In this document: positions 36,678 through 54,977 of the stretch, in pieces
Layout: every line of letters begins with the position of its first letter
How positions within the stretch are numbered: position 1 is the stretch's first letter
Source of the DNA: a virus
Length of the DNA: 64,000 nucleotides
Strand: one strand, 5' to 3'
IMG/VR virus record: IMGVR_UViG_3300025121_000282
Span: 248,001 to 312,000 of that record
Translations under genes and position numbers: made by a program
Notes under the pieces: generated by a model
What the model was told of the DNA's origin: nothing
Seen by the model: the letters and a program-made list of their open reading frames with translations, nothing else
Database searches by the model: none

Positions 36678-38213
36678 TTACTGTCTAAATAACACAAACT
36701 TTTTCTTTTCTTTACCAAACACTTTTACGTACCCTTTTGATTCAGCAAACTCCTTCTCTGTCATATGGCATCCAACGGCATGGTTGTATAAAGTCTTTTT
36801 GTGCATCATCCAACCAGTCGTGTCTACGTACACATAATCAGGCTTGGTAGTGGAAACATGTTCCCAATTTGAAGCTTGGTAGACGATGCCCTCATGGCCC
36901 ACGGTAGTATCGGCAAACGAAACTATTGCCTTGGTTTCTGGAAATTGGTCCCAGAAGTGTTTGGCCGATCTTGCTAAAAACCAAGACCCGAAATTAGGCT
37001 TGTGGCAGTCTGTTCTGATACAAAGTCTATCCAACTCCGACACTGTTTTTGGAGTAAGTCCTACTGAGGTGGACACCTCTTTTCTAACAACAGGAGCGAA
37101 CTTTGCCACTGCTATTAATTGGCCATCCAAGTAAGCCCCAAACATAAACTTTGCTTTACGACCACACTGGGCATAGTGCCAAGCTCTTAAAAATCTGTTA
37201 CCCTCAGAGTGCTCTATAGGCTTGACAATTAATTGGTTAAACTCGAATTCAGTTATTTTGGACTCGCTGACACCAATTACAGACTGAATTTTATCTTGAA
37301 CCAAATCAGGTATTAAAGTCTCATGCTCTTCTATACACAAAAGTAGTGAATCAGGGTTTGCAATTCTAAGATATGCTGATTTAGCAACGTCCCGCCTTTG
37401 GTTATTCGGAAGGTTGTGCCAATAATCACCTTGTACTTCAATGTATATATTAAAATCCGATAAATACAGGTCAAAATTATACGGACCCACAGATTTTTCT
37501 CTGGTGTATTTTATCTCAAGCAGGTCTAATACATCAGAAACCACTTTTTCAGGTTTAGACTGTCTGCCTGACCTAGAAAAGGCCTCTATACCAGCAGCTA
37601 TTTTAGCCCTGTACTCTGGATTTTTAAATCTTTCTTTTGCCAATTCACTGTGTATCTTTTTGTATTCTGGGTTCTGGATTGCCAAGTCATGGTTAGCTCT
37701 CGCCTCAGGCGTGTGCATTACTGACACTTTTTCCCTGAAGTATTTGTCTGGGTCGGCTTTATAATCCGCCTTGTTTCGTTCCGACACCAGCTGTTTATGC
37801 TGGTCTGACTGAAACATCTTGGTAATGCGGTCTTGCTGAAACTCCCTAAAATCTGGGTCTTCCCAAGCCTGTTTAGCTTGCTTAGACCTTTGGGCTCTGC
37901 CATCTTCAGAATTGGCTATGGCACCCAATATTTTTGACTGGTTGCTGACGTACTCTGGATTCGCCCAGGCTTGCTTGGATTGCTTAGACCTCTGAGCTTT
38001 TCCTTGAGGACTCTTAGCTCTGCACGGGGAACACCAGTATTCCCCGCGTTTTCTCAGAGTTCTATTTACAATAGACCTCTGATTGCATACAGACCTACCA
38101 CAACACTGATAGACTACCCACCCTCTTTGTTTAGGGGTGGGTAATCTATACCCAAAGTCTATTTCGTTGTGCTCTTGGTCGGAAATTTGTGCGTACAGTG
38201 TTGCTATATCCAT
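36678..38213 (-). CDS. EDxHD-type homing endonuclease fused to Mom-like domain
   Basis: 511 residues. N-terminal Cys cluster (37-64), then NUMOD-like DNA-binding repeats (about 70-210; 'KQAWANPEY', 'KQAWEDPDF', 'RFKNPEY'). Residues 215-305 form a Vsr/EDxHD-type nuclease: 'VGPYNFDLYLSDFNIYIEV' followed by QGDYWHN. Residues 325-470 resemble the phage Mu Mom protein (GNAT-like fold): HY346-347, 'SELDRLCIR', and 'SFADTTVGHEGIVYQASNW' (432-450). The nuclease part is of the homing type used by free-standing phage endonucleases. It follows the purZ-like gene by 42 bases. The fused Mom domain could be functional or vestigial. Confidence 0.75.
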   Translation of the reverse strand: MDIATLYAQISDQEHNEIDFGYRLPTPKQRGWVVYQCCGRSVCNQRSIVNRTLRKRGEYWCSPCRAKSPQGKAQRSKQSKQAWANPEYVSNQSKILGAIANSEDGRAQRSKQAKQAWEDPDFREFQQDRITKMFQSDQHKQLVSERNKADYKADPDKYFREKVSVMHTPEARANHDLAIQNPEYKKIHSELAKERFKNPEYRAKIAAGIEAFSRSGRQSKPEKVVSDVLDLLEIKYTREKSVGPYNFDLYLSDFNIYIEVQGDYWHNLPNNQRRDVAKSAYLRIANPDSLLLCIEEHETLIPDLVQDKIQSVIGVSESKITEFEFNQLIVKPIEHSEGNRFLRAWHYAQCGRKAKFMFGAYLDGQLIAVAKFAPVVRKEVSTSVGLTPKTVSELDRLCIRTDCHKPNFGSWFLARSAKHFWDQFPETKAIVSFADTTVGHEGIVYQASNWEHVSTTKPDYVYVDTTGWMMHKKTLYNHAVGCHMTEKEFAESKGYVKVFGKEKKKFVLFRQ

Positions 38214-38255
38214 ATATAACTATACAACCGTAACTATACGCTTTCGCAGTTACAT

Positions 38256-40679
38256 CTAACCCAAGTACACGTAGTCATCATGGAGAGCGCTGGTACCAAC
38301 CATCACCACGGGAAGTCCTGAGCAATTTTCCAGCATATCAATAAACGCTCTGGTTTCAGAGCTAAACTTGACTAATGCCTCTTTGCCCCCGCGCAGACCG
38401 ACGTCGATGTGGTTGATTTGATTCACAAAATTCAGTACAAGCTTGGTTGCACCGCAGGTTCTAGCAGCGTCCTTAAGCCCAATTTGGGAGAATGTCCCTA
38501 CGCGTCGAATGCGCTTAGTAACCGTGGTTCGCTCGCGTTCCGCCAACATTTTTGCCTCTTCCTCTGGCATGTTGGCTCTCTTTGCTATCTCATCCCAGGT
38601 CAATTCCTGTTGGTCGGGGTACCACCCTCCAGAATTCCCCAGTTCTTTGCCAGACTCGTCATACACGTTTCCAACCCTAATTGGGTGCGACCTTAAGTTT
38701 AAGTAGACGTCGCCCACCATGTTTGGGGGAATGGCCATATAGTCCATGGCTGCCTGAACTGTGCAGTTTCTAGAAGTGCAGTTTGGATAGTGTGAGCCGT
38801 GGTCAATACTCAGTGCATAGCCCTGGCTTCCTTCATGGAGCCAGTAGTCACCCTTACTGATGATTTTGTGGGTGGCATCACGAAATGCCATGCCGTTGGT
38901 GATTTGAATGTTTCCAGGGAGGTCTATTGGTGCTGGTGTGTTACCAACCAGGGGCACATTCTGCTTCCGTAAAACCTTATCAGCCAGGGCGGTCCCGGAA
39001 CCCTGCATAGTGGAGGCTAGGTGCTTGGTGCTTTCTGCTCCCTCACGCTCTCGTGCAGCGTGGTCCTCGGTTACAATACCTGCACGATCATGAACATAAA
39101 GGTCTGGTCCACCACACTCCTCATACTCCTTGATGAACTGTTCCCAACGAAAAGATGAACCGGGAGAAATCCATCCAGCAACCTCACGGCCAAGTGCTTT
39201 CTTCAGACCGCATGCGGTGGGCAGAGCCTTGGCTACAAACTTCCCATCTTTCAAATTCGGGTGAGCAATAGTGTTGTGTGAAATAGCACCATTGGCTAGA
39301 TAACTGTGGGTTTGGGGCATGGTTACATCAAAAACCCGTTCTTCCCCAATTGCCAAATTGACTTCTTTGATGTCTACTACATGATAGTCCTCGGCCAATT
39401 TAACTAAGCCGGTAAATCCAGCCGCTCGGAGTGTGGCGGCATTGCGTAAAACATACGCACCTGCGATGGCTCCATTCTCAGTTGAATTCGTGCTGTGTGC
39501 AGCTTTGCGTATTTGAATCAAACGGTTATAATTGAGATTGATGAGAGAGCCTTGAGACCAATCAGCATCGTATGTGGCTATTTCCACATTTAATCTAGCC
39601 GACTTGACCTCTGAAAGAAAACCTACTCGCTCACGAAAAAGGGTTAAATTTTCCAAACCCGCCATCTCAATTTGATGTGATCGACTGCGAGAAGGTCGCT
39701 TGTCCTGGTAGGACCGGTAAGTGGAATTAATACCCAACAACAATAATAACTGTTGGGCCATCAGCACCACATCTTTTGAAATGTTGCCAAAAGAAACCCT
39801 TCGCTTTTTGGCCGACCCATCCGAGTCAAACAGACCCCGCAGAAATGCTCCAATTATTTCAGGGGTGCCCACAGTGACAGCAGTCGGTATCTCTTTTTCG
39901 GCTTTAGTAGCTAGCTTCAACCCCACTTGTTCAAAGATCTGGCGAAGTTCGGAAATACTGCAGGTTTCCAGAACGTGGCACTGTTTGTCTTTTACCTTGT
40001 AAACATTCCATGGGATGCCGATGCCATCGTAAAATTTTTGAGTCTTGCAGCAAACATCCATCTGGTCAGAGTGGAACGCTATGCTAACATTTGCCTTTTT
40101 GGGACTGTAACACCCATCACCAACCAACAGCCCCAGGTATTCAGCCATTAATAATTCGTCTGGTTTATTTGTCAGTGCGGTTCCATTCGCTCTGTGTATC
40201 AGGGATAACATGTCTATAGGTAGACTGGTTCCCACCCAGTTAGTCTTTTTAGGAAATAAAAACTGGTGTACTCCAGGTACTAAATCCATTGACCGTATCC
40301 ACTGTGGGGCGTTTTCAGTGGGGTCCCAAACATAGTACTGATGTATGTCAGTACATTTGTACTCAATGCCATTCTTGAGTTTGATTTTGTTGACTACTCT
40401 AACCCCGTCATCAACCAAATCTGTAGGCGACTCCCAACAGCCGTCCATGTTGAGAAGCTGCAGACCCTTTTGGTTCTGAGTGACAATATCCCCAAGCTTT
40501 TTTAATCCCCGGTCAGTGGGGATTATGGCGTCAAAAGTTTGACAGTGGCCTGCATTGGGATAGTTGGCAGAAGACACATTTCGGACATTGAAAATATCCA
40601 CCAAACGAGACGACAAAGCTCCCTTACCTGAGCTACCCCAGGCTTGGTCGAGGACAACATTGAACTTTCCAGGCTGCAT
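38256..40679 (-). CDS. purZ: PurZ-like adenylosuccinate synthetase paralogue, intein-interrupted
   Basis: 807-residue precursor: N-extein 1-45, intein 46-469, C-extein 470-807, giving a spliced enzyme of 383 residues. The P-loop is WGSSGKG (14-20): Ser16 replaces the catalytic Asp13 of E. coli PurA, as in PurZ enzymes that use dGMP. His45 matches PurA His41. The IMP-loop equivalent is GSGTALADK (560-568) without the usual Arg. The aspartate loop is TTVTKRIRRVGTF (718-730). The GTP-specific TKLD motif is replaced by LNFVNQ (749-754), as in PurZ. Such enzymes join dGMP and aspartate to make N6-succino-2-amino-dAMP, which the host PurB turns into dZMP. Strong AGGAGAG ribosome site; stop is TAG. 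Confidence 0.85.
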   Translation of the reverse strand: MQPGKFNVVLDQAWGSSGKGALSSRLVDIFNVRNVSSANYPNAGHCQTFDAIIPTDRGLKKLGDIVTQNQKGLQLLNMDGCWESPTDLVDDGVRVVNKIKLKNGIEYKCTDIHQYYVWDPTENAPQWIRSMDLVPGVHQFLFPKKTNWVGTSLPIDMLSLIHRANGTALTNKPDELLMAEYLGLLVGDGCYSPKKANVSIAFHSDQMDVCCKTQKFYDGIGIPWNVYKVKDKQCHVLETCSISELRQIFEQVGLKLATKAEKEIPTAVTVGTPEIIGAFLRGLFDSDGSAKKRRVSFGNISKDVVLMAQQLLLLLGINSTYRSYQDKRPSRSRSHQIEMAGLENLTLFRERVGFLSEVKSARLNVEIATYDADWSQGSLINLNYNRLIQIRKAAHSTNSTENGAIAGAYVLRNAATLRAAGFTGLVKLAEDYHVVDIKEVNLAIGEERVFDVTMPQTHSYLANGAISHNTIAHPNLKDGKFVAKALPTACGLKKALGREVAGWISPGSSFRWEQFIKEYEECGGPDLYVHDRAGIVTEDHAAREREGAESTKHLASTMQGSGTALADKVLRKQNVPLVGNTPAPIDLPGNIQITNGMAFRDATHKIISKGDYWLHEGSQGYALSIDHGSHYPNCTSRNCTVQAAMDYMAIPPNMVGDVYLNLRSHPIRVGNVYDESGKELGNSGGWYPDQQELTWDEIAKRANMPEEEAKMLAERERTTVTKRIRRVGTFSQIGLKDAARTCGATKLVLNFVNQINHIDVGLRGGKEALVKFSSETRAFIDMLENCSGLPVVMVGTSALHDDYVYLG
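39273..40544 (-). mobile_element. Intein with LAGLIDADG homing endonuclease in purZ-like gene
   Basis: 424 residues (46-469 of the precursor). Begins with Cys46 (CQTFDAIIPTDRG, block A), has TxxH at 110-113 (block B), two LAGLIDADG-type helices LLVGDG (184-189) and FLRGLFDSDG (279-288), and ends with block F/G 'THSYLANGAISHN' followed by Thr470. All splice-site residues (Cys1, His-Asn, Thr+1) are intact, so protein splicing and homing should be active. Insertion splits NAGH from T, the catalytic His loop of the PurA fold. Confidence 0.93.
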
Positions 40680-40681
40680 GA

Positions 40682-42370
40682 CTAAACTCTCCTAACCCAC
40701 TTGGTTTTTGGCACCTCTGATACTGTACAGAGACCGGTATACTCTACAAACTGTCGTTCTGTCATATGGTTTGACAGTGCTTGATCATACACAGTACGTT
40801 TGTGTATGTATCTCACTGTGACTGGGTCAAAATAATGATACGATTCCCCGGTCTGGCCCGCTTCAATAAAACTACAGGCTTTGTACAAGCCACCAGAATC
40901 ACCAACATTGGGGTCAGAAAATGAAACCAGTAACTTTAGCTTTGGGCTTTCTGATTTATAGGCACCAATTAACTTAGACATACAGTAAGAAGATAGATTA
41001 TTCACATCCAGTCCAGACCTTACGCAAAACCGTCTAATCTCTCTGACACTACCTGGATTCAACTTACCCAGCCCCAGTTGCTCTGCGGTTTTTTTGACAG
41101 TTCCGTGTCGGGTTACACCACCAAATACCAGCAAACACACCAATGTGTCCTTAAAATAAGCCCCATAGGGAGAGGCTGCTGTCCCCAAAGTGCCCAAGTA
41201 ATGATTGGTGGTTAGAAACACGTGGGCTTCTTTTAACGGAACAGGTCTAAACTCCAAGTCCGACAACTGAAATTGTATTGGTTCTTCAATGGCTCGCAAA
41301 ATGTGATAGTCCAACACTTTACGAAGTCTTCCCAGATGCAGTTCATGCTCCCATAACCACACTAACTTATACTTTGAATACTTTTCTATGTATGTAGCTT
41401 TGGCCTTATCTCTGGGTGTTCCAGAGTACCCGTTGTCTTTAAAATTGTGAAGATAATCACCATGGGTCTCTATCAACAAATTGCATAATGGTACATAAAA
41501 ATCAAACGAGTATGGGCCCACCGTGAAACTGCGTTCGAATGGAACCTTATAGTGGGACTCCAAAATGGAGGCTACTATCCTTTCTGTAGTAGGGTTCTGT
41601 AATTTCTCTTTGACACCCGGGATGTCAAAACCAGATTCTGACCCGTATAATTTCAGTAAGGTAGTTCTGCGTTTAATGGCTTTACATTTGGCAGACCCAC
41701 AGGTTAACGGGTGGGCCTGGGTGTAATACGACATCTTGGTTTCAGAGGTATTGTCACACACATAACACTTATAAATTATGGTCTTTTCACACAGTGGGAA
41801 TATTTTCGTGGCCTTGTACCCAAATTTAACAAACGTGGCATCGTCATCAGCCCATGCATAGTCTGGGGGCTTTCGTTTCGACAACCAAAAGTCATGCTTA
41901 CTTTGTGTGGATTCTTCGCGAATCCAAGTAGCAGCCACAGGACTGCACAGTTTGCAGCACACTACTTTGTTGCTTCTGGATAGACTTTGCAAACTGGTAG
42001 TGTACTGCTCTAGGCAAAATTCACATACAGCTTCAACAGCTTTTTCTGACCTTGGAGACAGTGTGTCTAGGCCATACCCATGTTTGGCTATGGTCAACAA
42101 AGAGTCTGCCCCAGCGGGCCGTTTAAGTACACTTAATAAATAGTACTCTCTAGGTGTTGTTTGTTTCTGCCTTACCCAATGAGATTTTAACTGATCGCAG
42201 CCCGAACAGGCATCTGGCGGAACGCGTCCAGGTTTGGAAAACTGATATTTCTTCCTCTCAAACACTTCTAAACAGAAATCGCATTGCACCACTACAGGTT
42301 TCTTAGACTGTGGCGCTAAGTCACTGTACCGATATCCGTATTTCTCAACAGTCAAGTCATCTTGGTGCAT
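40682..42370 (-). CDS. Zn-ribbon/EDxHD nuclease fused to Mom-like domain, upstream of purZ
   Basis: 562 residues from the ATG at 42370. Three Cys-rich zinc-binding repeats fill residues 28-230 (CDFC..., CEFC..., CYVC...). Residues 270-345 are a Vsr/EDxHD-type nuclease ('VGPYSFDFYVPLCNLLIET' then HGDYLHN). Residues 380-530 are Mom-like (HYLG, 'VREIRRFCV', 'SFSDPNVGDSGGLYKAC'). Same nuclease-Mom order as the gene at 36678, but with a different N-terminus; the two are diverged paralogues flanking purZ. Ends TAG three bases before the purZ start, inside which lies purZ's ribosome site. Confidence 0.72.
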   Translation of the reverse strand: MHQDDLTVEKYGYRYSDLAPQSKKPVVVQCDFCLEVFERKKYQFSKPGRVPPDACSGCDQLKSHWVRQKQTTPREYYLLSVLKRPAGADSLLTIAKHGYGLDTLSPRSEKAVEAVCEFCLEQYTTSLQSLSRSNKVVCCKLCSPVAATWIREESTQSKHDFWLSKRKPPDYAWADDDATFVKFGYKATKIFPLCEKTIIYKCYVCDNTSETKMSYYTQAHPLTCGSAKCKAIKRRTTLLKLYGSESGFDIPGVKEKLQNPTTERIVASILESHYKVPFERSFTVGPYSFDFYVPLCNLLIETHGDYLHNFKDNGYSGTPRDKAKATYIEKYSKYKLVWLWEHELHLGRLRKVLDYHILRAIEEPIQFQLSDLEFRPVPLKEAHVFLTTNHYLGTLGTAASPYGAYFKDTLVCLLVFGGVTRHGTVKKTAEQLGLGKLNPGSVREIRRFCVRSGLDVNNLSSYCMSKLIGAYKSESPKLKLLVSFSDPNVGDSGGLYKACSFIEAGQTGESYHYFDPVTVRYIHKRTVYDQALSNHMTERQFVEYTGLCTVSEVPKTKWVRRV

Positions 42371-42478
42371 ACCTGCATTATACACAAAAGTGTGGCACTA
42401 ACGGCAAGGGTGCTATACATTAAAAATTACTTCGTACTTGGTTGTACAATACCATCAGACCCACAACAGGAAGACACA

Positions 42479-54329: not shown

Positions 54330-54977
54330 TTATGTGGATGTGTACTTTTTGGTGAAATACGATGTGGCGTGGGCGTTTAGATACGACCTGAAGAGTCTGT
54401 TGGGAATGCCTGCTTGTTTTGCAGTCTCCATTACATCAGAGTGTAAAGACTTCATTATACTGTAATTTATAGGGGACTTGATTTTAAATGAATGTTCCAT
54501 GTTTGGGTTGTGAGCATCACTTTCAGGACACGTACTTGGTAGTCGTTCGTGTACTGTATCCCCTCGATTTCGTATGTAATATTCCCACACACTTTGGGCT
54601 GGTCCAGTAACTCCATCTCGGTCTGGAATCACCCCCATACCATCTTCCTTGGCTACAGAAAGGGCTGTGTCATACAACAGTGGGCCATATCCCTTCTTAG
54701 CTGCTACAATGCTTATTTCGTAGTTGTAGCCGCACCCATCCGTAGCTAATTCCATACTTAAAATCCCAGTTATAGACTCTTTTAAAGTAGCAACAAAATT
54801 AGTCATCACATCCGGGTTTGTGTCTTTCTCTTTGCCGTATGTGTCTGCCGCGTTGTTAACTACCTGGGCGTCGTACATAATGAAGCTGTGGTCGCCCCCA
54901 TTATCGTTATGCTGAAGAGCCACATTGCTACTTGTGCTGTAGGCTACACATCGTAGTACTGCACTTAACTTGGTCAT
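54330..54977 (-). CDS. GNAT-like protein, tandem copy 1
   Basis: 215 residues. 'YGPLLYDTALSVA' (97-109) and 'IPDRDGVTGPAQSVWEYY' (117-134) match a phage GNAT-like pattern (GPLLYD...PDR...W.YY). Start overlaps the next copy's stop (ATGA). The acetyl-CoA P-loop is not clear-cut, so enzymatic activity is uncertain. Confidence 0.65.
   Translation of the reverse strand: MTKLSAVLRCVAYSTSSNVALQHNDNGGDHSFIMYDAQVVNNAADTYGKEKDTNPDVMTNFVATLKESITGILSMELATDGCGYNYEISIVAAKKGYGPLLYDTALSVAKEDGMGVIPDRDGVTGPAQSVWEYYIRNRGDTVHERLPSTCPESDAHNPNMEHSFKIKSPINYSIMKSLHSDVMETAKQAGIPNRLFRSYLNAHATSYFTKKYTST

Follow-up and report, generated by a model that had tools for sequence, protein, structure and literature searches.

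Nuclease–Mom fusion genes at both ends of an intein-containing purZ in a giant phage: candidate homing endonucleases with a conserved modification domain

The putative Z-base gene purZ of a giant phage (IMG/VR record IMGVR_UViG_3300025121_000282, 314,886 bp) is enclosed by two free-standing genes, P0001 and P0002, each of which joins an EDxHD nuclease domain to a transferase domain of the type of Mom from phage Mu. The stretch of DNA analysed here, referred to as the window, comprises 64,000 nucleotides (bases 248,001–312,000 of the record) and supplies the coordinates used for this locus. All the genes concerned are on the minus strand, in the order P0002 (42385–40682), purZ (40679–38256), P0001 (38213–36678) and a transfer RNA (tRNA) gene with a CTA anticodon (36674–36600). 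Only 2 bp separate the stop of P0002 from the ATG of purZ and 42 bp the stop of purZ from the ATG of P0001, while an AGGAG within the 3′ end of P0002 could serve purZ. P0001 and P0002 are the only Mom genes in the entire 314,886-bp record, statements about the record as a whole resting on family and protein searches of it.

P0001 encodes 511 amino acids. An array of helical repeats with the pattern W/F-x-(D/N)-P-(E/D)-(Y/F) forms the N-terminus (37581–38213), presumed to be the DNA-recognition part, and is followed by the EDxHD nuclease domain (residues 218–316, 37266–37562, with D248, E259, H266, D275 and K278) and by the Mom domain (residues 321–511, 36681–37253, with H346, Y347, E393, R396, S410 and D435). 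Residues 327–486 match the Mom family PF25680 with an E value of 5e-28, far over the curated cut-off, and in the AlphaFold model residues 321–510 align with Mu Mom (8bv8) at Z 18.3 and residues 218–316 with the EDxHD homing endonuclease I-Bth0305I (3r3p) at Z 13.0 and 31% identity. Pfam matches of the helical repeats to GerD were judged compositional. P0002, of 567 amino acids from a GTG at 42385 or 562 from an ATG at 42370, has the same succession of parts with a different N-terminus, here an array of repeats of about 75–100 residues with paired CxxC motifs (residues 35, 60, 121, 144 and 207; 41666–42385), which form tandem Cys4-type zinc repeats with a model confidence that is low in places and are likewise presumed to recognize DNA. 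Its nuclease domain occupies residues 265–367 (41285–41593; Z 12.4 and root-mean-square deviation 2.5 over 96 residues to 3r3p) and its Mom domain residues 374–567 (40685–41266; Z 16.6 to 8bv8), of which residues 377–540 match PF25680 (E 1e-18), again far over the curated cut-off. A phmmer search with P0002 alone found no PDB sequence. A profile built from 13 fusions found exactly two, Mu Mom 8bv8 (E 4e-12) and I-Bth0305I 3r3p (E 7e-11), and the domains of P0002 are assigned because Pfam, the fusion profile and the fold agree. The N-termini of other relatives also include helix–turn–helix-like arrays, and all such arrays would be expected to bind DNA. The longest array noted belongs to a nuclease–Mom protein of 1,272 residues (L014, 4375–8193), whose very long series of near-identical helical repeats (WxDPEFRxxMxEVFSSDEFR...) is possibly an extendable modular DNA-recognition array.

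The gene between them encodes 807 amino acids, comprising an extein of 383 residues and an intein in frame. Alignment with intein-less purZ places the N-extein at residues 1–45 (40545–40679, ending ...YPNAGH) and the C-extein at residues 470–807 plus the stop (38256–39272). The intervening residues, approximately 46–469 (39273–40544, CQTFD...ANGAISHN), are an intein with a LAGLIDADG endonuclease, recognized by PF14528 (E 5e-18), PF14890 (E 8e-7), PF05204 (E 7e-4) and TIGR01443. Its insertion point in purZ separates the His from the Thr of the active site (H52/T53 of S-2L PurZ), a position also occupied by an intein in L148, and a third phage (L162) has its intein at another site of purZ. The NCBIfam PurZ model matches with an E value of 8.5e-46, which beats every PurA model yet stays below the curated cut-off, and phrog_1211 matches at 1e-40. 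The GSSGKG motif contains the equivalent of S23 of S-2L PurZ, a serine listed among the residues unique to PurZ in the structural study of that protein (PMC8342488). The gene is assigned to PurZ because this is its best curated model and because it has the PurZ-specific serine. No match to MazG or DatZ, corresponding to the Z-cluster partners MazZ and DatZ, was found in the phage record, and a PolA polymerase is present.

Three mobile nucleases are thus assembled at one locus, P0001, P0002 and the LAGLIDADG endonuclease of the purZ intein, which is one of four LAGLIDADG-containing genes in the record. A first-pass annotation, made from the letters of the sequence, had read the two outer genes as fusions of a nuclease with a Mom-like GNAT domain, with dissimilar N-termini, on either side of a putative Z-base enzyme. 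Both open reading frames, their domains and the identity of their neighbour are borne out here, as is the resemblance of both C-terminal domains to Mu Mom for which it had proposed a structural check; it had overlooked the intein in purZ and the tRNA gene after P0001.

Searching viral contigs with an alignment of the fusions yielded 262 relatives, of which the best 80 were kept, and conservation was read from 80 fusions de-replicated at about 90% identity. The nuclease residues D248, E259, H266, D275 and K278 are conserved in 94–100% of these sequences, and the same range holds for H346, Y347, E393, R396, S/T410, D435, Y445 and H471 of the Mom domain. P0001 S410 and D435 align with S124 and D149 of Mu Mom, 8bv8 being titled as the inactive mutant S124A; for the Mom residues other than that serine a catalytic role is presumed. 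Since both active sites are retained to this extent in 80 divergent fusions, the Mom domain of the P0001/P0002 group is probably active, and in this group selection maintains both sites. GNAT folds are often reused, and the proteins might also be homing endonucleases in which the Mom-like domain has given up DNA modification and acts instead as a DNA-binding or dimerization part. In favour of this reading, the more distant Hef-type proteins from Campylobacter, Klebsiella, Tenacibaculum and Thermus lack the tyrosine and have H-L or H-I in place of the H-Y pair. For the fusions considered here it is rather unlikely, as the residues in common with Mu Mom (H, Y, E, R, S/T and D) are kept as strictly as the nuclease site throughout the 80 sequences.

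The genomic positions of the relatives point to purZ as an address for genes of this kind. The four nearest relatives of P0001 (45–50%), in four different phages, all lie on the strand opposite to an intein-less purZ and directly against its 3′ end, their own 3′ ends being −23, −11, −9 and +1 bp from that of purZ; P0001, unlike them, is on the same strand as purZ. These five genes form one clade (SH-aLRT, a Shimodaira–Hasegawa-like approximate likelihood ratio test, 99 in a quick tree), which is therefore found at the purZ 3′ end in 5/5 phages irrespective of orientation. The sampled collection may lack records very close to the window, a possible bias. The N-terminal array of P0001 can be aligned over its full length only within this purZ-3′ clade (42–51% identity over 169–202 residues to L066–L069) and not with other fusions. 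A scan for purZ gave 26 loci, and one syntenic group among them has the conserved order B250-purZ-A82-C189-ThyX. Its purZ-A82 junction is empty in L139, L152 and L157, where the two genes overlap by 4 bp, and nearly closed in L148 (9 bp); it is filled by an HNH-type gene in L141 and L143 and by a nuclease–Mom gene in L142, L146, L147 and L149. The purZ 5′ end of L160 and L162 has a nuclease–Mom gene of another clade, divergently oriented. The window phage has purZ without the B250-purZ-A82-C189-ThyX order around it. Together with the inteins at two sites, these occupants mark purZ out as a hot spot, both for homing genes and for inteins.

Some further features of these loci deserve mention. 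The HNH-type gene of L143 (6179–7405) is fused in frame to what looks like A82, and a family of about 250 amino acids with no Pfam or PHROG match (L066, 8734–9501) is directly upstream of purZ in 17 of the 26 loci and further along in L138; this family may represent a Z-pathway or purine gene that is otherwise missing. The phage of L068 has, in addition to the nuclease–Mom gene at purZ, a second and distant one beside thyX (448–2394).

That two nuclease genes happen to adjoin purZ in one phage could be put down to the abundance of homing endonuclease genes (HEGs) in jumbo phages, the window phage itself having further LAGLIDADG genes elsewhere. Under random placement, however, the probability that both window copies would be purZ-adjacent is about 4e-5, and the association recurs in six other phages, which leaves chance with hardly any credibility. 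Across the purZ records, placing the 36 Mom genes at random, with one gene per kb, would be expected to put 0.36 of them next to purZ, and six are found there (P 2e-6). Four of these six belong to one clade in related phages, and when the independent events are counted as four (one for the clade of P0001 relatives, one for that of L160 and L162 and two for the window genes) against about 0.37, the P value, calculated by hand, is ~6e-4.

The same adjacency, and the fact that both Mom copies of the window flank purZ, would suit a functional partnership, Mom being kept beside purZ in order to modify or protect DNA that contains 2-aminoadenine. The first-pass annotation had set this idea, a Mom-type modification accompanying Z, beside that of selfish genes targeting the purZ locus, and the wider comparison separates the two. 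Mom domains are present in 13 of the 26 purZ records, with 36 genes in total, and absent from the other 13, while 10 of 25 nuclease–Mom records have no purZ match, counts in which some records may be incomplete. Nuclease–Mom relatives occur in 39 Campylobacter phage records, and Campylobacter does not rank among the top ten organisms for purZ matches. Within the purZ phages 30 of the 36 Mom genes are located elsewhere, the orientation to purZ is not kept, and HNH genes and inteins without Mom occupy purZ as well; for the window phage, moreover, Z-DNA is itself putative, given no match to MazG or DatZ. A functional partnership with Z is accordingly very improbable. With a Mom domain that looks catalytically intact, local modification is possible, but Mom is associated with the nuclease and not with Z. 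Selfish targeting, the supported part of the earlier interpretation, draws on the purZ-3′ clade, on its empty or otherwise occupied sites and on the unrelated nucleases (HNH, the intein LAGLIDADG and another nuclease–Mom clade) that also settle at purZ.

Elsewhere the fusions recur beside other conserved genes, with tail sheath (13 neighbour entries) and sigma factor (6) genes joined by those for the major head protein, head protease and portal, and further by dnaE, clamp loader and polA genes, and single records contain up to 8 nuclease–Mom copies. Gain and loss can be followed between related phages. Among Klebsiella phages, Muenster has an intact fusion of which RaK2 and RCIP0023 retain only residues 1–155 and 500–542, with flanks 97.6–99.6% identical, and at a single site Campylobacter phages have one copy (CP81), two copies (F341) or a relic (CJLB-7). 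This pattern of gain and decay fits homing genes and is unlike that of an essential protective system. At another locus (L137, 2236–8254) dnaE is broken twice; each break contains a nuclease–Mom gene, the second is also spanned by a split intein, and the protein L137_2649 carries D275N and Y347M.

Recognition, nuclease and modification are all found on one chain, an arrangement that resembles type IIG enzymes. With both active sites conserved, the proteins might therefore be read as a single-chain restriction–modification system of the phage, in which Mom would mark adenines genome-wide and the nuclease would destroy unmodified host or competitor DNA. This is the published prediction for the same domain fusion, Mom with a restriction endonuclease, reported from jumbo phages in 2021 (Iyer et al.; PMC7824862), in the text of which a word search found no mention of homing. 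The addresses, empty sites and relics described here point instead to homing. The copies are numerous, differ in their N-terminal arrays and have fixed addresses beside conserved genes, they come and go between near-identical phages and decay by deletion of the whole enzyme, and their EDxHD kin are homing endonucleases within split inteins. We consider a dedicated restriction–modification function unlikely, although the two readings overlap, as chemistry of the restriction–modification kind could serve both homing and exclusion.

The interpretation that we favour, with a probability of roughly two in three, is that P0001 and P0002 have colonized both ends of purZ as free-standing endonuclease genes of the homing type. 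The tandem N-terminal array would set the target and the EDxHD nuclease would cut purZ-bearing DNA without the gene, at a site in or near purZ, after which recombinational repair would copy the gene in. The Mom-type transferase on the same chain may then modify adenine at the recognition site of the gene itself. Free-standing homing endonucleases must not cut the genome that carries them, and the known solutions are interruption of the site or divergence of the target sequence. An intron or intein interrupts its target and a free-standing gene does not, which would create the need for self-protection of this kind; of the possible roles for Mom we hold it to be the most likely, tentatively and as nearly an even call. 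On a reading of the sequences, nuclease-only relatives frequently lie between the two parts of a split-intein gene, IMP-dehydrogenase-like and RecA-like genes being examples, and a pattern of the intein C-part accompanies 9 of 28 nuclease-only genes against 1 of 83 fusions (Fisher 1e-5). Insertion in a split-intein gene removes the target from the genome of the carrier, whereas a free-standing gene leaves it in place, which suggests that Mom protects the site of its own carrier. It is possible, if somewhat doubtful, that such genes amount to modification-protected homing endonucleases with an epigenetic immunity of their own, in which the fused Mom domain would mark the intact recognition site wherever the gene is already present; they could then target highly conserved sites that stay uninterrupted, and could exclude unmarked rivals too.

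Several observations weigh against this interpretation or parts of it. No empty-site relative was found for the window phage itself, and the clade-specific choice of neighbouring genes could partly reflect vertical descent, since L066–L069 share synteny. The conservation of Mom fits restriction–modification equally well. The contrast between Mom and split inteins may be one historical event, since the nuclease tree shows only about three changes in the presence of Mom, and a phylogeny-aware paired test of it, with 2–3 independent pairs, has no power; L137, moreover, is an exception in which a fusion is found within a split-intein dnaE gene.

Comparison with characterized and annotated systems brings out similarities to, and differences from, each known type. 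I-Bth0305I shares the nuclease fold, the catalytic residues and the association with conserved phage genes, and nuclease-only kin of its EDxHD (Vsr-like) type occur in split-intein genes, but P0001 and P0002 are free-standing and have large N-terminal repeat arrays and a C-terminal Mom transferase. Occupied and empty sites, by which EDxHD homing endonucleases are recognized, are seen for the P0001 clade and for distant relatives, and the latter are publicly annotated as Hef-like or EDxHD homing endonucleases. The Hef-like homing endonucleases of T4-type, Campylobacter and Klebsiella phages (phrog_559, phrog_3339) have the same architecture with a Mom-like C-terminus and show gain, duplication and decay at fixed sites; they differ in other addresses and in a Mom-like part without the tyrosine of the H-Y pair. 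Mu Mom, a methylcarbamoylase, is matched in fold and at the positions of H58-Y59, S124 and D149, while the Mom of P0001 is fused to a nuclease and recognition array and no com-like regulator is seen next to it. The purZ locus is not a split-intein ‘fractured gene’, the intein being contiguous with purZ in one frame and both HEGs lying outside purZ. It corresponds rather to the HEG-islands in which several unrelated HEGs bracket one important gene and the HEG class is interchangeable at one position (PMC10448857), for here also several HEGs bracket a gene and their class changes between phages. That text is without EDxHD, Vsr or Mom, and the gene bracketed here is purZ, which has an intein too. 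No homing endonuclease with a modification domain of its own is described in the open-licence literature searched, which is weak evidence of novelty.

An association of the amber-reading tRNA-CTA gene with the mobile genes is uncertain. TAG is the stop codon in 9 of about 57 called open reading frames of the window phage, purZ and P0002 among them, and the tRNA gene is only 3 nt from the P0001 stop. Elsewhere too, transfer-messenger RNA (tmRNA) or tRNA genes directly adjoin nuclease–Mom genes (L076, 7387–7725; L112, 7639–7709; L064, 976–1141), the tmRNA tag of L076 being ANDNAVRVAA. A promoter scan of the purZ locus gave a site count not above that of shuffled sequences, and terminator-like stems number 16 against 7.3 in shuffles. 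No group I or II intron of Rfam reached the gathering score in the nuclease-only loci or in 11 fusion loci, so that none of these loci gave a sign of an intron-encoded form. The PolA-type polymerase of the phage (G000, 50712–51899) is followed 2.5 kb on by a further match to PolA, short and in a frame of its own (54441–54572), perhaps a fragment or an interrupted gene.

What this analysis adds to existing knowledge is the purZ-specific clade with its empty and alternatively occupied sites, the strict conservation of both active sites and the hypothesis of self-protection. An intact-looking base-modifying domain on the nuclease chain suggests a third solution to the problem of self-avoidance, one which would join homing to restriction–modification. 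The purZ-3′ clade makes the idea directly testable: its target gene is defined, both empty and occupied sites occur in nature, and there are catalytic residues to mutate. The idea also offers an alternative reading for the Mom–nuclease fusions of jumbo phages, which are now filed as restriction–modification.

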